Shown: positions 270 through 5,972 of the stretch, piece by piece
Layout: every line of letters begins with the position of its first letter
Position numbering within the stretch: position 1 is the first letter of the stretch
Source: Pseudonocardiaceae bacterium
GTDB lineage: Bacteria; Actinomycetota; Actinomycetes; Mycobacteriales; Pseudonocardiaceae
Length of the DNA stretch: 5,972 nucleotides
NCBI GenBank assembly: GCA_025937115.1
Contig: JAICSB010000218.1
Location: 1 to 5,972 of the forward strand
Direction of reading: 5' to 3'
Notes under the pieces: generated by a model
The model's input: the letters and a program-made list of their open reading frames with translations, nothing else
What the model was told of the DNA's origin: nothing
Databases searched by the model: none
Program-made: the position numbers and the translations under genes

Positions 270-1142
270 TCACGGATTGCGTATCAGGGATCTGAACTTC
301 AACCCCAGCCACGGCTTGCGACCCCACGCTATGAGCTGACCCTTGGCGATCGCGTTCCACTGGCTCTGGCGCTGCCAGAACACCATGAAAAACGCTGCGG
401 GATCGGCCAGGATATGGCAGTCGACCTGCCGGGCAGACGGCTCTTCGACCCTGAGTAATCCATCATCGAAAACAAAATTGATCCGACCGCTTCCCCGTAG
501 ATGCACCTGGTAGGTGGCCTGGAGGCCAGCCGCCTTCTCAGCGTTGACAAACGTCCGAGGCTCGCACGTTTGCATCACCGGGACGAAGAACTGCCGCACC
601 ACCATGGCTGCATGTGCCGGCTCGATCCGCCACTTGCGTCCGGCGGCCTTGGCGATGTCGTAACCGTGCATGAGCGTTTCGTTCAGCAGGTTGCAGGTCA
701 AGGCCGACAGGGGCACCGAGGTGCCTTCGACCGTCCACGGGCGCGGCTCATCGGGCGAGTGCCCCGCACACGCGCCGAGGTACTCCTCCGCCCGCTCCTC
801 GATGCGGCCAGCCAGAACAGCCAGATCGCGCTCGGGGTCGGACTTCAACCCAAGCGCGTTCATGTCAGCGTTGTCCCACATGTCCGGGATCATCGAGTCG
901 CCGGCCACCCCAGCAATGCCGGGTACTACTGCCTTATATCGGGAGAGGTCTTGCCGTGCCATCCCAGGCACCAGCATCCAGTTCTGCGAGAGATGCATGG
1001 CAACCTCAGCGATGTTCCACTGGCCCACCGCGGGAACTCCCGGATCAGTGATGGACCGCATCAGGGTCGTCACCCGCCGAACCTCATCACGGAGTGCGTC
1101 CTGGCTCTGCTGCCATTGAGCTGCCGATACGCTCGCGACCAT
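270..1142 (-). CDS. Maleylpyruvate isomerase N-terminal (DinB-like) / SCP2-type protein
   Basis: A 290-residue protein with the architecture of the mycothiol-dependent maleylpyruvate isomerase family. Residues about 10-170 form a DinB-like four-helix bundle with His50 in AMHLSQNW and Glu155/His159 in NETLMHGYDIAKAAG. The ExxxH spacing and the distant first His match the metal-binding triad known for the family (His, Glu, His). Residues about 205-288 look like the SCP2-like C-terminal domain (ILADPAAFFMVFWQR then an aliphatic-Gly tail). Members use or are thought to use mycothiol, but many have unassigned substrates, and nothing here indicates a gentisate pathway. The ATG is well supported: AAGGGG (1148-1153) lies 5 bases upstream. 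It begins one base after the stop of the 96-residue gene, so the two are probably translationally coupled, and it is followed after about 40 bases by the flavoprotein gene. Confidence 0.88.
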   Translation of the reverse strand: MVASVSAAQWQQSQDALRDEVRRVTTLMRSITDPGVPAVGQWNIAEVAMHLSQNWMLVPGMARQDLSRYKAVVPGIAGVAGDSMIPDMWDNADMNALGLKSDPERDLAVLAGRIEERAEEYLGACAGHSPDEPRPWTVEGTSVPLSALTCNLLNETLMHGYDIAKAAGRKWRIEPAHAAMVVRQFFVPVMQTCEPRTFVNAEKAAGLQATYQVHLRGSGRINFVFDDGLLRVEEPSARQVDCHILADPAAFFMVFWQRQSQWNAIAKGQLIAWGRKPWLGLKFRSLIRNP

Positions 1143-1143
1143 G

Positions 1144-1434
1144 TCAACCCCTTAATACGTCGGTCAGCGTGGGTTGGCGCAGCGTGGGCGCCGGTCTCAT
1201 CGCACGATGCCCCAGCTCCTCCGTAATGTTCGAAATCGCGTCGATAAGCCACTTCGTGCGGGTCCGCGATTGCATCCACGACGGCAGATCCAGCGCTGCC
1301 ATGATCTCGTCGGCGAGCACCTCGCCGATTACTCCCGGCCACAACCGCTTGGCCTTCGCGGCGGCGGCTGCCGCCATCCGGTGAGGGGCGTACTGGTCGA
1401 CTTCCTGCGAGGCCTCGATCTGTATGTCGAGCAT
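1144..1434 (-). CDS. Unrecognised 96-residue protein, first gene of the operon
   Basis: I do not recognise this family. The start is one of the best supported in the window: AGGAGG at 1441-1446 sits 6 bases before the ATG. The stop is separated from the next ATG by a single base, and the next gene's ribosome site lies inside this reading frame, so it is a genuine co-translated gene. The product is small, soluble and largely helical by eye. It has an acidic start, an alanine-rich stretch at residues 20-28 (AAAAAAKAKRL) and a central segment WPGVIGEVLADEIMAALDLP. A basic RTRTKWLIDAI segment follows, then a Pro-rich tail. There is no signal peptide, membrane segment or Cys cluster. Its place ahead of an isomerase-like protein and a flavoprotein suggests an accessory subunit or partner of that pathway, which is inference only. 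Confidence 0.8.
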   Translation of the reverse strand: MLDIQIEASQEVDQYAPHRMAAAAAAKAKRLWPGVIGEVLADEIMAALDLPSWMQSRTRTKWLIDAISNITEELGHRAMRPAPTLRQPTLTDVLRG

Positions 1435-1440
1435 CGGAAA

Positions 1441-1446
1441 CCTCCT
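1441..1446 (-). promoter_or_regulatory. Strong Shine-Dalgarno of the left operon
   Basis: The minus strand reads AGGAGG followed by six bases and ATG at 1434. This fixes the start of the 96-residue protein and indicates a leader RNA reaching back toward repeat copy A at 1502. Confidence 0.8.
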
Positions 1447-1501
1447 CAGCTACTGGCCGTCCCCGGCTCGCGGCGACCTCGGCGTCAGCTCCGTCTCCAA
1501 C

Positions 1502-1597
1502 GGTAGTGAGGCGCGCGGTGTAGCGGCGTCCGTCGAATTACTCAGCCGCATACTCAACTGCGGTTGGTGATCCAGACCGTCCGGCGCCTGGCTGCGG
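1502..1597. repeat. LuxR-tail/leader repeat, copy A
   Basis: Plus-strand core GGTAGTGAGGCGCGCGGTGT continues with the conserved GCGTCCG...GAATTACTCA block, then CCGCATACTCAACTGCGG and TGGTGATCCAGACCG (to 1579). It matches copies B and C across the left half. In the right half it matches B and D, which is the 3' end of the luxR gene at 5317-5367. After GACCG the match weakens to CTGGCT only. The luxR reading frame is disturbed here by extra bases, so it is a decayed fragment rather than coding. The copy ends about 70 bases before the start of the left operon (minus strand), so it may supply that operon's promoter region. Confidence 0.8.
1539..1557. promoter_or_regulatory. Paired TACTCAG / TACTCAA heptamers (copy A)
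   Basis: Two heptamers in direct repeat, TACTCAG at 1539-1545 and TACTCAA at 1551-1557 (12-base period). On the minus strand they read TTGAGTA...CTGAGTA and lie about 105 bases upstream of the left operon's start codon. The same pair with a 13-base period recurs in copies B and C, each time upstream of a minus-strand ORF. Spaced direct half-sites would suit a NarL/LuxR-type regulator. That role is inferred. Confidence 0.4.
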
Positions 1598-1605
1598 GAT
1601 GATGA

Positions 1606-1890
1606 TCACCCGAAGGGAAACGCGTTGTCAATGAGGTAACGCCACGATCCGTCCGGCTGCCGGCGAAAGACGTGCACAGGACGAGCGCTGAGCGTCCTCG
1701 GACTGCCGTCAGGATCGTTGTTTTCCACCTTCCATTCGGCAGTCTGCAGTCCGATATCTCCCACCTGGTGACGGCTGAGTACCTTGATTTCGAAGTGTCC
1801 CCAGGCCGCCAGGAAACCGGCCAGCGCTTCCCGAATAGCGTCGGTACCCGTAGCTACCTGACTGGGACCTGGAACGGCTCTGTCCGGAGG
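1606..1890 (-). pseudogene. NTF2/SnoaL-like (YybH, SgcJ/EcaC-type) protein, N-terminus missing
   Basis: The minus-strand frame ending at the TGA in 1606-1608 encodes VATGTDAIREALAGFLAAWG, then a strand-rich middle (GDIGLQTAEWKVENNDPDGS) and ends RRQPDGSWRYLIDNAFPFG. This is the C-terminal two thirds of the small cone-shaped NTF2-like family often annotated as SgcJ/EcaC or DUF4440. The xGxxAIREALAGF and PDGSWRYxIDN segments are its usual landmarks. The expected first helices (about 45-50 residues) are absent. No ATG, GTG or TTG lies between the fragment and the in-frame TAA at 1891-1893, which is the stop of the flavin oxidase, so no translation start is visible. Either a deletion joined the two genes or the product depends on readthrough. 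I call it a pseudogene with good confidence in the family. Confidence 0.75.
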
Positions 1891-2484
1891 TTAGGCCGGC
1901 GTGATGTTTGCGTTGCGGTGGAAGACGTTGCCTGGGTCGTACTGGGTTTTGATCAGGGCCAGTCGATCGTATTTCGTCGACCCATAGGTGGCTCGCACGC
2001 GGTCGTCGTCTTGTTCTGGGTCGAAGTTGACGTAGCCGCCAGCGCCCGCGGCGAGCGGGCACAGGGCGTCCCCGGTGTGGCTGACGAGCCCACCGGTGAC
2101 GGCGAGGCCGTGCGCCTGGATGGTGGCGTCCAGGTCGGCCAGGCTCGCCCCGCCACCGACGACCGCCCGCCTGCGCTCGGGATCCACCACCACGTCCCGC
2201 ATCCCGCTCAGGTCGATCATCAGGCCGCCCTCGCACACGGCCAACCCGCTGTACCCGTGCCCACCACCGCGGACCGCGATCTCCAAGTCCTCGCGCTGCG
2301 CAAATCCGACCGCCGTGACCACGTCCTGCTGCGTCTGGCACCGCGCGATGACCGCGGGATGACGGTCGATGTCGCCGTTCCAGATCAAACGAGCGCTCTC
2401 ATAGTCGGCGTCACCCGGTATGAACACAAGGCCCGACATCACTCTACGGAGTGCTTCGACACCCTCGCCTACCGTCGCTGTCAC
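1891..2484 (-). pseudogene. FAD-binding (PCMH/BBE) oxidase with a large in-frame internal deletion
   Basis: The first ~138 residues are the FAD-binding PCMH domain of a berberine-bridge/6-hydroxy-nicotine-oxidase-like flavoprotein. They include RGGGHGYSGLAVCEGGLMID, whose His (about residue 76) is the usual covalent FAD attachment site, and GGGASLADLDATIQAHGLAV. At SHTG the sequence should continue into a GLTLGGG-like motif and about 250 residues of substrate domain. Instead it jumps directly to the C-terminal BBE segment: GGYVNF, DRVRATYGSTKYDRL and YDPGNVFHRNANI. The protein is thus about 197 residues instead of about 450, joined near base 2071 with the frame kept. It lacks the second flavin-linking Cys region and the active site, so it is probably nonfunctional. 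GTG at 2484 is preferred because GGGGAGGAGA (2494-2503) directly abuts the other GTG at 2493. Confidence 0.8.
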
Positions 2485-2493
2485 AAGAACCAC

Positions 2494-2503
2494 TCTCCTC
2501 CCC
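2494..2503 (-). promoter_or_regulatory. Purine-rich ribosome site deciding the oxidase start
   Basis: The minus strand reads GGGGAGGAGA. It touches the GTG at 2493 but leaves about 10 bases to the GTG at 2484, which favours the latter start. Confidence 0.6.
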
Positions 2504-2543
2504 GCCGACGGAATCGAACATTTCGGCTTCAGGTCGCGTTCCG

Positions 2544-2650
2544 TGCACCTGAATACGTTAGTGAGGCAAGCGGCGTGGCGGCGTCCGCTGAATTACTCAA
2601 TCCGCATACTCAACTGCGACTGGTGATCCAGACCGCAGGCTGGCTCCGGT
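2544..2650. repeat. LuxR-tail/leader repeat, copy B
   Basis: The best-preserved non-genic copy. On the plus strand it starts TGCACCTGAA (shared with copy C), then GTTAGTGAGGCAAGCGGCGT, GCGTCCGCTGAATTACTCAA, TCCGCATACTCAACTGCG and TGGTGATCCAGACCG, to CTGGCTCCGGT. On the minus strand the right end still reads as the luxR C-terminus, R-S-Q-P-A-V-W-I-T-S-R-S-stop, against R-S-Q-I-A-V-W-I-T-S-R-S-stop in the luxR gene. Over 49 bases I count 45 identities with copy D. It lies about 70-160 bases upstream of the flavin oxidase start. Confidence 0.85.
2594..2613. promoter_or_regulatory. Paired TACTCAA heptamers (copy B)
   Basis: Two identical heptamers, TACTCAA at 2594-2600 and 2607-2613, separated by TCCGCA (13-base period, somewhat more than one helical turn). 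The minus-strand reading is TTGAGTA-N6-TTGAGTA, about 110 bases upstream of the oxidase start. This is the most regular of the three pairs and the natural reference for the motif. Confidence 0.4.
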
Positions 2651-2657
2651 CCGTCGA

Positions 2658-2829
2658 TCACAGCTGATCGGGGATGAAAGTCACCGGGTGGGCTCTCATC
2701 CAGCCGACCACGTTCGGTCCTGCTTCGGCCATCTCTGGGTACGCTGCACGACTGCCTCCTAGCCAGCGCGTGGTGGGGGGCGTTCCTGGCGCGGCAAAGA
2801 GGACGGAACGGCGTCCAGGGTGTCACACT
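2658..2829 (-). other. Gap between the oxidase leader and hicB: possible C-terminal gene fragment
   Basis: With repeat B, this fills the 352 bases between the flavin oxidase start and hicB. One minus-strand frame is open from just left of a TGA near 2829 to a TGA at 2658-2660. Its last part reads AAYPEMAEAGPNVVGWMRAH and then PVTFIPDQL. It looks protein-like in composition, but I recognise no family and see no convincing start; an ATG at 2732 would give only 24 residues. It sits immediately before the luxR tail of copy B, so it may be a remnant of another gene. A GGAGG followed by GTG near 2749 belongs to another frame that stops after 17 codons. Low confidence. Confidence 0.3.
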
Positions 2830-2836
2830 GAGACCT

Positions 2837-3061
2837 ATGGGCACCGCTCGGAACCTGACCGCCGCCGTACATCAGGAAGAGGACTGGTACGTGGCACAGT
2901 GTCTTGAGGTCGACGTCGCTAGCCAGGGCCGTACGATCGACGAAGCCTTGAGCAACCTCGCCGAGGCTGTCGCTCTCTACCTCGAAGAGGTCGATGACCC
3001 ACAGCGGCACGTCACCGCCACTCCTCTCGTCACCTCGTTCCAGGTGCCCGGAGCAGCGTGA
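2837..3061 (+). CDS. hicB: HicB-family antitoxin (short form)
   Basis: A 74-residue protein with the HicB fold signature: an N-terminal beta strand (NLTAAVHQEEDWYVAQCLEV), then DVASQGRTIDEALSNLAEAV, the helix that packs on the sheet, and a short acidic tail. HicB proteins bind and block the HicA mRNase. Classical HicB (about 130-150 residues) also has a C-terminal HTH or ribbon-helix-helix that autoregulates the operon. None is visible here, so this short form would need another repressor or none. The gene is on the plus strand, opposite to nearly all its neighbours. It overlaps hicA by the 4-base GTGA (3058-3061), giving antitoxin-first order. The ribosome site before ATG 2837 is weak (only GAG at a usable distance), but the reading frame and family match are strong. 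Confidence 0.88.
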   Translation: MGTARNLTAAVHQEEDWYVAQCLEVDVASQGRTIDEALSNLAEAVALYLEEVDDPQRHVTATPLVTSFQVPGAA

Positions 3062-3281
3062 GTCCTGCGCTCTCTGACCTACCGATCGCAAGATCACCCG
3101 TGTTATCGAGTCGCTTGGCTTTGTCTACGTGCGCACGAAAGGCAGCCACGCCGTCTACCGGCATGCGGATGGCAGGGCCGTGGTTATCCCTCAACATGGG
3201 ACCGTCAAGCGAGGCACTCTGGCCTCCATCCTGCGGCAAGCTGGAATAACGCCTGCTGAGTTCCTCGAACTGCTTCAGTGA
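3058..3281 (+). pseudogene. hicA: HicA-family mRNA interferase toxin with a one-base frameshift
   Basis: The frame from GTG 3058 gives V-S-P-A-L-S-D-L, a normal HicA beginning. Shifting frame near 3080 gives D-R-K-I-T-R-V-I-E-S-L-G-F, then VYVRTKGSHAVYRHADGR, a PQHGTVKRGTL loop and RQAGITPAEFLELLQ to the TGA at 3279-3281. This is a complete HicA double-stranded-RNA-binding-like domain with the catalytic His in GSH (about residue 31). The span is 224 bases; one more base around 3078-3081 would give 225, an exact 74-residue reading. In the second frame a TGA lies just upstream (3074-3079 area) and there is no usable start, so the toxin is not made unless the shift is a sequencing error or a real ribosomal slip. 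The gene starts on the GTGA overlap with hicB. Confidence 0.85.
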
Positions 3282-3295
3282 CGATCCAGTCGTGA

Positions 3296-3397
3296 TCAGT
3301 TCGCTGAGCCGGCAGGTCGGAAGCTGTGTATCGGCCGCTCGCACTTCCAGCCCAGGACGCTCCGAGCCCAGCGATCGGCTGCCGGACGGGTGTCCAT
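3296..3397 (-). CDS. Possible 33-residue ORF downstream of repeat C
   Basis: ATG at 3397 is preceded by GGAGAG (3407-3412) with 9-base spacing. The frame reads MDTRPAADRWARSVLGWKCE and continues about 13 residues to TGA at 3296-3298. It occupies the same position relative to copy C that the 96-residue gene and the flavin oxidase occupy relative to copies A and B. It might therefore be the surviving start of a gene cut off where hicBA now lies. I recognise no family and the length is within chance expectation for this GC content. Confidence 0.25.
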   Translation of the reverse strand: MDTRPAADRWARSVLGWKCERPIHSFRPAGSAN

Positions 3398-3409
3398 CGT
3401 CTTCGTCTC

Positions 3410-3500
3410 TCCATGCACCTGAACGGTTCGCCTTGCACGGTAGTGAGGTGGGCGGTGTCGCCGCGTCCGCTGAATTGCTCAACCCACCTACTCAGCGGCG
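3410..3500. repeat. LuxR-tail/leader repeat, copy C (degenerate)
   Basis: The plus strand carries ATGCACCTGAA (shared with copy B), then GGTAGTGAGGTGGGCGGTGT, GCGTCCGCTGAATTGCTCAA and CCCACCTACTCAGCGGCG. The left half is as well conserved as in A and B. The luxR-coding right half is nearly lost after the second heptamer. Orientation is the same as A, B and D. Confidence 0.75.
3476..3495. promoter_or_regulatory. Paired TGCTCAA / TACTCAG heptamers (copy C)
   Basis: TGCTCAA at 3476-3482 and TACTCAG at 3489-3495, again with a 13-base period. Each differs from TACTCAA by one base, while the surrounding luxR tail is far more decayed. This unequal decay hints that the paired motif was kept longer than its surroundings. 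Confidence 0.35.
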
Positions 3501-3603
3501 TGCTGCGGCCGATGTCTATGCGGTAGGCCGCCAGCACGGGTGGTCCAGACTCACCCATTTCATGTTGTTTCGTGGGGGCACCGGGAATGGTGTCGGGACG
3601 GGA

Positions 3604-4419
3604 TCACGAGGGAATGAGGGGCATGCTCATCTTGTGCATCGGGGCGTCGGCTGTCATCAGCCCTGGAACCCGCTCGGGAACGAGGGCCACGGCAAGGCCT
3701 AGCACCAGCAGCGCGAGGCTCACGAACGTGGCGGCGGCTCGGCGCCAGGGCAGTAGCTTCTCAGCGGCGATGAAGACGGCGATCAGTGCCGTCCACGCGA
3801 TGCTCATGACGCCAAGGGCGAATAGCGCGGTCATCAGTGCCCAGCAGCAACCGATGCACCAGATGCCGTGGCGGGCGCCCATCCGAACCGCGCCCAGCGC
3901 ACCTGGACGCCAGTGCTCGAGCAGGAAGCCGAACGGACCACGGCAATGCCGCAAGCACACGTCCTTCAGTGGCGTGAGCTGGTAGGCCGCTGCCGCGGTG
4001 ATCACTCCGCCCGCTAGCAGCGGTCCGCCCCGGCTCCAGCTCAGGGCATCGATCTCAAGGGCGCGTCCAGCCTTGACGATAGCGAAGCCGATGAGCCCAA
4101 CGACGGTCCACGCTGCCAGATAGCCGACCAAGAGCAAGGCCGGTCCCATCCGCACAGCGTTGTTCCCGCGTTCGCACCGCGCGGCCTGCAGCCGCTGGTA
4201 CACGAGCACCGTGGGCCACACCGACGGGAGCATCATCGCTGCCATCATCAGCGTCCACATACCGGTGAACAAGCCGAGCGGACCCGGATCAGCACCCGGA
4301 CCCCCGTCCTCGCCTCCCATCTGCTGCACCACCACAGCCCAGCAGACGACGGCGAGGGCCAGCAGCGGACCGATCGTCAGCAGCGGGCCGGGCCTGACTG
4401 GGACGCCGACCCTTGTCAT
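3604..4419 (-). CDS. DUF2182 integral membrane protein
   Basis: A 271-residue polytopic membrane protein of the DUF2182 family (predicted metal-binding integral membrane protein, function unproven). I see about six or seven hydrophobic segments (roughly residues 12-30, 50-73, 93-114, 132-148, 187-219, 230-247). The family landmarks are present: WTLMMAAMMLP (55-65), YQLTPLKDVCLRHCR (146-160) and the Gly/Cys motif MGARHGIWCIGCCWALM (180-196) with Cys188/191/192. The tail MTADAPMHKMSMP is Met/His rich, like soft-metal-binding tails. The ATG directly follows the TGA of the DUF1326 gene with no bases between them, so the two are almost certainly one operon and probably one functional unit in the cytoplasmic membrane. 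A copper or other metal role is inference from Cys, Met and His content. Confidence 0.88.
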   Translation of the reverse strand: MTRVGVPVRPGPLLTIGPLLALAVVCWAVVVQQMGGEDGGPGADPGPLGLFTGMWTLMMAAMMLPSVWPTVLVYQRLQAARCERGNNAVRMGPALLLVGYLAAWTVVGLIGFAIVKAGRALEIDALSWSRGGPLLAGGVITAAAAYQLTPLKDVCLRHCRGPFGFLLEHWRPGALGAVRMGARHGIWCIGCCWALMTALFALGVMSIAWTALIAVFIAAEKLLPWRRAAATFVSLALLVLGLAVALVPERVPGLMTADAPMHKMSMPLIPS

Positions 4420-5022
4420 TCAGCCCGTCCAGGCGAACGGGGCGGAAAAGCCCGAAGTGCCTGCTTGGGACCATTCCAGTCCGAGAACTCCGACCCGCGA
4501 GCGGCCCTTCGCCACGGTCAGCTCACTGTTGGCCGGGTGAAAGACATCTACGAGCCGGGCGGGGCGGCCGGTGTCCACACCGAACGGCACGACGTCATCG
4601 ACCTCGACCTCGAGTGCGTCACCGGCGCTCAGCTTGTGGTTCCCGTTGCTCTGGGTGACCTCGATGCGCATCCGTTCCACGCCGAGCATCTCGCCCACCA
4701 GCGGGGCGAGTGCCTCCATCGGGCCCCCCAGCTCGCCGCCGAACACCGCGCCCAGTTTCTGGAGTTGCTCGTCGGAGGCCCTCTCGTCCACCACGAGCGC
4801 GAGCTTCCAGTTGCCGTCGGTCATCACTTGAGGGGCGTCTACCACCACCACAACCGTCCGGTCGCTCACATCCACGTCGTCGACCTCACCGGTGTCAACG
4901 TGGAAGATGAGCACGGCGTTGCAGCGCTCCGTGTCGGCGCCGGCGTCAAACGTGACTGTGCACGGACAGGGCATATCGCAGGAACAATTTTCGAAGTAGC
5001 GACCGCGGATGGACCAGGCCAT
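4420..5022 (-). CDS. DUF1326 domain protein with CxCxxxCxC motif
   Basis: A 200-residue soluble protein of the DUF1326 family. The N-terminus carries the family hallmark IRGRYFENCSCDMPCPC, with Cys at residues 13, 15, 19 and 21, a likely metal or redox site. The body is beta-rich (ILFHVD-type strands, VVVVVDAPQVMTDGNW, LALVVDERASDEQ) and ends with a FAWTG tail. No signal peptide or membrane segment is visible. ATG 5022 is preferred over the in-frame TTG at 5040, because GAGAGGGGG (5030-5038) lies 7 bases before ATG 5022 and the longer start would place it within the coding region. DUF1326 and DUF2182 genes are known to occur together, and here they abut exactly. The biochemical role is not established; handling of a metal or thiol partner by the membrane protein is a reasonable guess. 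Confidence 0.88.
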   Translation of the reverse strand: MAWSIRGRYFENCSCDMPCPCTVTFDAGADTERCNAVLIFHVDTGEVDDVDVSDRTVVVVVDAPQVMTDGNWKLALVVDERASDEQLQKLGAVFGGELGGPMEALAPLVGEMLGVERMRIEVTQSNGNHKLSAGDALEVEVDDVVPFGVDTGRPARLVDVFHPANSELTVAKGRSRVGVLGLEWSQAGTSGFSAPFAWTG

Positions 5023-5029
5023 GGGTCGG

Positions 5030-5038
5030 CCCCCTCTC
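5030..5038 (-). promoter_or_regulatory. Ribosome site deciding the DUF1326 start
   Basis: GAGAGGGGG on the minus strand with 7-base spacing to ATG 5022. Confidence 0.65.
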
Positions 5039-5040
5039 AA

Positions 5041-5316
5041 CCGGGAGAACCAGAAGTCTCGTCCTGCTCATGAAACACGGTCAAGCCACCGGCCGGCCCA
5101 ACTGCCCGGCCAGCCGAGGAACCGAGCCGGACGCTTCCCTCTTCGAGAACGGCGTGACCGCAGCTGTGCCCGTCGATCACTAGCGCGCGTTCGCTGCGGG
5201 CGATGGCCTTGAGCCCAGTTACCCGGACATCACTGCACGGAATTGAGCCGCCGCGGGAAGGGCCTAAGGCAGCTGTTGACCGGTCGCCGGTGGCAGTCCG
5301 CACAGCGAAAACGAGC
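5041..5316. other. Gap between luxR and the DUF1326 gene
   Basis: Besides the promoter candidate, this stretch holds a minus-strand open frame (GTG 5303 to TGA 5037) that could encode up to 88 residues, including RSERALVIDGHSCGHAVLEE and SVRLGSSAGRAVGPAGG. I recognise no family, no ribosome site is convincing, and third positions are less GC-biased than in the flanking genes. A gene fragment or noncoding DNA is more likely than a gene. A short inverted repeat, GGCCGG (5091-5096) and CCGGCC (5106-5111), encloses a 9-base loop but has no T-run, so it is not a convincing terminator. Confidence 0.4.
5055..5084 (-). promoter_or_regulatory. Candidate sigma-70-type promoter for the DUF1326-DUF2182 operon
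   Basis: The minus strand has TTGACC (5079-5084) as a -35 element and GAGACT (5055-5060, fitting the loose actinobacterial -10 pattern xAxxxT) after an 18-base spacer. Transcription would begin near 5048, leaving a leader of about 25 bases that contains the ribosome site. The -10 is weak. Confidence 0.35.
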
Positions 5317-5367
5317 CCGCATACTCAACTGCGGCTGGTGATCCAGACCGCGATCTGGCTCCGGTTC
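5317..5367. repeat. LuxR-tail repeat, copy D (source-like, inside the luxR 3' end)
   Basis: The plus strand reads CCGCATACTCAACTGCGG, TGGTGATCCAGACCGCGATC and CTGGCTCCGGTTCGC. This is the reverse complement of the luxR codons N-R-S-Q-I-A-V-W-I-T-S-R-S and stop. It matches copy B in 45 of 49 bases and copy A over its first 31 or so. Here the second heptamer and the conserved leader are missing or too diverged to align firmly, so only the gene-tail half is shared. Confidence 0.8.
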
Positions 5368-5972
5368 GCAAGGTCGAGCTTGGTGAGGATGTGCTGCACG
5401 TGGTTCTGTGCGGTGCGCTCGGAGAGGTAGAGTCGGGCGGCGATCTCCCGGTTGGTCGGCCCCTGCGCCACCAGCGCGGCGACCTCGCGTTCCCGCGGCG
5501 TCAACGGCTCGGTCGGCGCCTGGCCGAGCCGGCCGGCCAGCTCCTGGGCGCGCGCCGCGAACGGCGCCATGCCGAGGGTCCTGGCTCGACCGGGCCGCGA
5601 TGCCCAGGTAAAGCTCAACTGGTCCGAGGTAGCCCGCGGCGCCCGCCCCGCCCGCGACATGGTGGCCGCGGTAACGGGCCAGCAACCCGCGTAGCGCCGC
5701 GACATCCTCGGCGGCGTCCATGGCCACGGCGACCACGATGCCGAGCGCGTAGCTGACGGTCGCCCCGTGGGTGGTCGGCTGCCACTGGGCGACCGGTCCC
5801 AGTGCTCGGTAGAGCCTGGCTGCCTCGGCACGCCGCCCGGCTGAGATCAGCACAACAGCCGGCGAGAGCGAGTAGATGACGCCGAAGGCCGGGCAGAAGT
5901 CTCGGGCGCCGACAGGTCCATCGAGGGCGTAGGCCGTCACCGAGCCGCTCGCCTCGGGACCGATGTGGCGGC
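5325..5972 (-). pseudogene. Large LuxR-type regulator, 3' part, with internal deletion and frameshift
   Basis: The frame entering at the right edge encodes helical TPR-like repeats typical of large LuxR (LAL/MalT-like or AAA-LuxR) regulators: SPAVVLISAGRRAEAARLYR, AMDAAEDVAALRGLLARYRG and GYLGPVELYLGIAA. It then breaks near 5580-5592. The family continuation appears in another frame as RTLGMAPFAARAQELAGRL, followed by the DNA-binding domain LTPREREVAALVAQG, TNREIAARLYLSERTAQNHV and ILTKLDLANRSQIAVWITSRS (5504 to the TGA at 5325). Family members normally have several further helices between GPVELYLG and LGMAP, so about 40-60 residues seem deleted together with a change of frame. The HTH itself is complete, with the normal NREIA and SERTAQNHV helices. 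The effector and ATPase domains, if present, lie beyond the window. The intact gene may have regulated adjacent modules through the TACTCAA-type sites, which is inference. Confidence 0.82.

Follow-up and report, generated by a model that had tools for sequence, protein, structure and literature searches.

The stretch of DNA analysed here, which we call the window, is a 5,972-nucleotide contig of a Pseudonocardiaceae bacterium (JAICSB010000218.1, assembly GCA_025937115.1), and its subject is a short element of 58-60 bp that is repeated among a set of genes, one of them luxR. All coordinates are window positions, and the gene sense of the copies, named A to D, is the minus strand. A, B and C all lie on that one strand, as direct repeats. 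Copy A occupies 1500..1557, with GAGTA half-sites at 1551-1555 and 1539-1543 and a putative -10 hexamer, TACCGT, at 1500-1505; copy B spans 2555..2613 (GAGTA at 2607-2611 and 2594-2598, TAACGT at 2555-2560); and copy C, at 3437..3494, has GAGTA at 3489-3493, the variant GAGCA at 3476-3480 and TACCGT at 3437-3442. At copy D (5317..5328) the luxR stop codon (5325-5327) overlaps the first half-site (GAGTA, 5322-5326), and there is neither a second half-site nor a -10. By blastn, A and B share 86% identity over 81 bp (2e-20), C matches A and B at 80% over 64 bp (2e-8 and 1e-9, respectively), and D matches B at 90% over 52 bp and A at 97% over 34 bp. The repeat in the window is real and chance is excluded; a pattern drawn from the copies gave three matches in the window, compared with none in 200 shuffles.

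Copy A ends 65 nt before the start of open reading frame ORF96 (1144..1434, minus strand), which encodes an unknown protein with no Pfam or NCBIfam match and is followed by a gene for a mycothiol-dependent maleylpyruvate isomerase-like protein with an SCP2 domain (270..1142, minus strand; Pfam). Copy B ends 61 nt before the GTG start of a FAD-binding/BBE oxidoreductase gene (1891..2493, minus strand; Pfam), the product of which has 200 amino acids in the window versus 469 in the relative G002, following an in-frame 807-bp deletion with an 8-bp overlap at 2065-2072. Between B and C lies a plus-strand pair of HicB-like (DUF7387) and HicA-like genes (2837..3281; Pfam, blastn), and further on are the DUF2182 (PpoB2) and DUF1326 genes (3604..5040, minus strand; Pfam). 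The far end of the window holds the C-terminal part of luxR (5325..5972, minus strand), which encodes a regulator of the large ATP-binding LuxR-type (LAL, MalT-like) class with a GerE domain. It aligns by blastn in two pieces (5329-5593 and 5589-5972), and relative to G002 a frame-shifting deletion of 179 bp interrupts it at about 5589-5593, before the GerE domain, with a 5-bp overlap at the joint. The intact G002 orthologue, P0001, has 956 amino acids, with AAA_16 at 4-177 and GerE at 897-951, and so fits the LAL class, taken here as proteins of about 800-1000 amino acids with an N-terminal AAA/NTPase domain and a C-terminal GerE helix-turn-helix.

Some of the copies are joined to pieces of luxR itself. 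Compared by blastn with the intact G002 gene, a 3' coding remnant of 22 bp (1558..1579, minus strand; 95% identity) adjoins copy A and one of 40 bp (2614..2653, minus strand; 85%) adjoins copy B; the same comparison gave no luxR match at copy C. A preceding sequence-only reading of this DNA had described three intergenic copies and D in a shared orientation, and A, B and C are indeed same-strand direct repeats. It had also taken the right half of each copy for the last 15 or so codons of luxR, an extent that does not apply throughout, given 40 bp at B, 22 bp at A and no luxR match at C; and the left half for a leader conserved among A, B and C, which agrees with the shared element, D holding only the luxR end and the first half-site of that leader.

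Searches beyond the window used the family, order and class samples of G002. A strict pattern ending in TCACTA recovered only copy B within the genus, and we therefore relied instead on a profile, R1, derived solely from the sequences of ten copies, and on a pattern for the upstream part, GAGTAN{5,9}GAGTANYYCGNCNGANG, which makes no demand on the -10. Copies A, B and C score 67.2, 64.3 and 60.5 bits with R1, the sequence of each being among those that built the model. Across 390 family genomes, R1 gave nine matches of 54-66 bits, several of them to sequences from which the model was built, and all at the home locus, with weak matches elsewhere. At E<=0.01 it matched in 78 of the 390 genomes (stricter filters, 14 candidates scored per genome), yet exceeded 54 bits only at the nine home sites. 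Among 26 weaker loci that were inspected, a LuxR end bearing the GAGTA repeat was seen at four (L066, L067, L074 and L078), whereas the other 22 lacked the repeat, for which reason the R1 E-values were not trusted. A weak match in G082 was judged to be chance, as it sits inside a long open frame, and one in G015 is limited to the luxR tail within the query. The upstream-part pattern found 30 sites in 28 of the 390 family genomes (reversed control, 1), sites in five of 397 genomes of the order sample, one of them new (control, 1), and sites in nine of 394 genomes of the class sample, eight of them new (control, 0). Once the two home sites are set aside and each repeated genome is counted a single time, 37 outside sites remain. 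Viral contigs held no match to the first pattern, and the 20 plasmid records listed of 48 that matched hit gene regions (FAD, DUF2182/DUF1326, luxR), with no leader among the matches listed.

The element begins with two GAGTA half-sites at a distance of 11-14 bp, which are followed by nYTCGGCGGAYG and, further on, by a -10 hexamer. A TAnnnT hexamer lies 37-38 bp past the second GAGTA at 35 of the 37 outside sites (32 of 34 distinct ones) and at seven of the ten home sites, compared with at most 1/44 for any adjacent pair of offsets between 15 and 95 that avoids 37 and 38. Direct-repeat half-sites thus stand at a fixed distance from the -10, as would be expected of an activator-dependent promoter. 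With its position upstream of genes, the element could also be read as an RNA leader or attenuator acting after transcription, an explanation that we regard as extremely improbable: no Rfam family reached its gathering score in the window, most of the core is upstream of the putative -10, which would leave it out of a transcript starting there, and the conserved part often falls within luxR coding sequence in distant genomes.

It is at the ends of such genes that the element is chiefly found. The 3' ends of LuxR/LAL genes carry 29 of the 37 outside sites (24 of 28 in the family, 0 of 1 in the order and 5 of 8 in the class sample). At these 29 sites the luxR stop codon falls anywhere from 23 nt before to 49 nt after the start of the motif, and at 19 of them it lies at least 31 nt after it, so that both half-sites are within the coding sequence. 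The next gene encodes 86-101 amino acids at 26 of the 29 sites, as called by a simple start finder, and the four such genes compared with Pfam gave no match. Of the eight sites off LuxR ends, that of G212 has, by eye, a similar next gene and that of G643 a lipoprotein-like one. The element of G336 occurs both at the luxR end and ahead of a 186-amino-acid gene preceding luxR, and G337 has two sites spaced as in G336. Two class genomes (L135 and L136) carry the operator and -10 before a DUF2784-type gene (Pfam for L135 only), apparently with no LuxR gene directly upstream. As a separate observation, tandem LuxR/LAL paralogues occur in three family genomes (G029, G121 and G179), their aligned parts about 30-40 bp apart. 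Going by the sequences, the repeat is most probably a locally copied promoter that depends on an activator, a LuxR regulator of the LAL type (AAA-ATPase plus GerE).

Relatives of the window bear on how the copying may have proceeded. A luxR orthologue (86-100% identity) is present in four of 11 congeners (G001, G002, G102 and G107), and the same four hold the strong profile matches. Five versions of the locus can be told apart: the window together with contig C243 as one, then C212, G002, G102 and G107. Both C243 and C212 belong to G001, which therefore has two versions and may represent mixed strains. A pattern scan of the genome collection gave two records, L001, which is 99.5% identical to the window over 1920-5972, and L002, which belongs to G002. 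The luxR gene is intact in three versions (956 amino acids in G002, 977 in G102 and 956 in G107) and broken, as in the window, in C212, where about 2 kb are missing from its interior. The element of G102 stands immediately behind luxR and in front of DUF1326, and in G107 and C212 an element without a luxR tail lies ahead of DUF1326. Copy B of G002 retains a 114-bp luxR remnant, identical at 108 of 114 positions (95%) to the luxR of the same genome and at 109 of 114 to that of G107; at copy B of both the window and G102 the tail is 40 bp. We infer that copying came first and deletion afterwards, because luxR is intact in three versions and the 114-bp remnant is present at B in one.

These remnants, of 22 bp at A, 40 bp at B and 114 bp at B of G002, together with the damage to the luxR and FAD genes of the window, could also mean that the copies are nothing but relics of dead luxR paralogues with no present function. 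The conservation of the element argues otherwise in most comparisons. When versions are compared at A and B, identity over the 60-bp core is 85-93% (66-93% among all ten home copies), as against 40-46% for the upstream 60-bp flanks in five of six pairs and 40-75% for the downstream ones in four of six. The downstream flanks of the other two pairs reach 90-92%, and between the window and G102 at B the flanks, with 93% for the upstream one, are as well kept as the core, as would be expected of simple relics. However, the copies of G107 and C212 keep the core without a luxR tail, and the core is a promoter-like element that also occurs in other genomes, and we consider the absence of any present function very unlikely.

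In C212 (L011, 2-1855) the start of the isomerase gene is fused in one frame to an apparent FAD-dependent oxidoreductase, after a deletion. G002 (L010, 13210-13307) and G102 (L025, 4771-4878) each have a fragment that matches the FAD oxidoreductase gene, flanked by pieces of ORF96 on one side and the isomerase gene on the other. At 1606-1764 the window apparently retains no more than the C-terminal part of a SnoaL/DUF4440-like gene (weak Pfam match, below the cut-off), of which G002, judged by eye, keeps an apparent N-terminal part. An unrelated repeat with inverted GCAGTCTGGATGC parts is found upstream of luxR in G002 (L010, 5352-5416) and in another genome (L027, 9286-9350). PADLOC matched none of five proteins.

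The content of the locus also varies between versions, which is what a cassette or recombination element would produce if modules were added or swapped at the unit of luxR tail and leader. By blastn, the HicAB pair is matched in the window and G102 and unmatched in G002 and C212, and the FAD gene is unmatched in C212; the G107 contig stops just past DUF2182 and is uninformative on FAD and HicAB content. The junction in C212 joins window position 1578 to 3570, that is, the edge of the luxR tail of copy A to the region behind DUF2182. Moreover, in G107 the luxR end and the stretch ahead of DUF1326 each contain TGAGTATGCGG, the two occurrences flanking a segment that is missing from G102. Against this, the 179-bp luxR and 807-bp FAD deletions, with end overlaps of 5-8 bp, lie outside the element, and at distant loci a fixed -10 accompanies the element, be it on a LuxR end or ahead of a gene. 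A mobile element or cassette would be expected to have dispersed copies, with a recombinase or terminal repeats, and no sign of one was found: strong profile matches in the 390 genomes lie only at the home locus, every copy found in G001 and G002 is on contigs of that same locus, and none of 10 open reading frames compared with Pfam encodes an integrase or transposase. A module-exchange function is thus, in our assessment, very improbable. The sequence-only reading had likewise noted no transposase, and had named confinement of the copies to this locus as the result that would speak against a mobile role, which is the situation in G001 and G002. Of its two proposals, that each module once followed its own luxR copy whose body was lost gains support at copy B from the G002 remnant; that the unit is a recombination point or a new type of element is unsupported as a main function, given a leader that is promoter-like, occurs at LuxR ends elsewhere and keeps its distance to the -10.

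Returning to the copied promoter, the most coherent account of the locus would run as follows. The operator would consist of the two direct-repeat GAGTA half-sites and nYTCGGCGGAYG, with TAnnnT 37-38 bp past the second GAGTA and no good -35. At its original site the element would overlap the luxR 3' end and stop codon and drive the next gene. Copies would then have come before the FAD oxidoreductase (B) and before ORF96 and the isomerase gene (A), with a piece of luxR that is probably a passenger. The tail can be explained without any special element because the operator overlaps the luxR end, so that luxR sequence easily comes along when the promoter is copied. Further copies would have arisen before DUF1326-DUF2182 in relatives and as copy C, the target of which may have been lost or may be antisense, and luxR sequence at the copied sites would later have been deleted. 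RNA polymerase would be recruited by the LuxR protein encoded at D once this had bound to the half-sites, which would unite the copies in one local regulon; binding and activation are suggested by the position of the element and its co-occurrence with luxR. In its full extent, this account proposes an undescribed, actinomycete-wide class of LAL promoters with the operator embedded in the 3' end of the regulator gene, here copied with luxR-tail passengers before at least three to four neighbouring units, and a local regulon enlarged through duplication of its promoter, of which the five versions would capture successive states of gain and decay. We lean towards this broader proposal by a small measure only.

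Several points weigh against the copied-promoter interpretation or limit its reach. Within the locus, copy C aims into the antisense strand of the plus-strand HicA/HicB-like pair and heads no same-strand gene directly; three of the ten home copies lack a -10 ending in T (TACCGC, TACCGC and TGCCGC); and half-sites are altered in several, the first being lost in C212_F and reading GCGCA in G107_F, with GAGCA in copy C and G102_D. Three of the 12 comparisons of flanks show no better conservation of the core than of the flank. The only sigma-70-like site (10/12) that a simple consensus scan found in 1400-5400 lies at 1602-1631, outside the elements and upstream of A, which means that A may not be the sole promoter there. 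The window copies have no intact cognate luxR at the locus and may be on their way out. The copied unit may have been either the promoter plus tail or whole luxR genes, with at least 114 bp necessarily copied given the G002 remnant. Among the other genomes, G004 has only a 39% LuxR homologue and no element. Eight of the 37 outside sites are off LuxR ends; L134 is probably a chance match and L112 has no -10; in G086 a site without a -10 stands upstream of luxR. Many of the family sites come from close relatives of each other. Finally, of 26 distant LuxR loci (L036-L061), the exact pattern stands at the end of nine and not of 17, which means that it marks a subset of LAL genes.

To our knowledge, few LAL operators are known, and LAL regulators are large. 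MalT, the founding LAL regulator, has two activator sites in direct repeat; its boxes are decanucleotide sites, which would differ from the element here in sequence and place. In SARP-LAL regulators it is the SARP domain that binds the heptameric repeats, whereas P0001 has no SARP-type domain, the domain scan giving AAA_16 and GerE. Such regulators of Streptomyces are described as carrying a SARP domain and as having heptameric direct repeats (PMC5930380). The element here would resemble theirs as a direct-repeat operator of large ATP-binding regulators. A further likeness is to the TpdR-dependent promoter PTTMP of Rhodococcus jostii TMP1, described as having direct repeats, one of them shown to be needed, and an activator of the LAL subfamily of LuxR proteins, in passages that also term the MalT boxes of maltose regulons direct repeats (PMC6099782). 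Both cases would combine a LAL activator, direct repeats and an activator-dependent actinomycete promoter, the present one as deduced from sequence. The 15-nt repeat proposed for TpdR, TnnAAnnGCGGAnTC, is a different sequence, and the passages on TpdR do not mention any site where the gene of the regulator itself ends (PMC6099782). Allowing at most two mismatches, this repeat had three matches in the window, none on an element, with 4.33 expected by chance. No description of the motif was found in the titles and abstract openings of the open literature searched, subscription papers being mostly outside it. What the locus offers would be an operator that is new and a regulon that has expanded locally, of a kind already known.

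If the copied promoter is what this element represents, a motif of fixed geometry at the end of the regulator's own gene would let the targets of LAL regulators be predicted from sequence. The locus itself is a natural case of a regulon apparently extended by the copying of a promoter, recognisable as such since the copies still hold coding sequence of the regulator.

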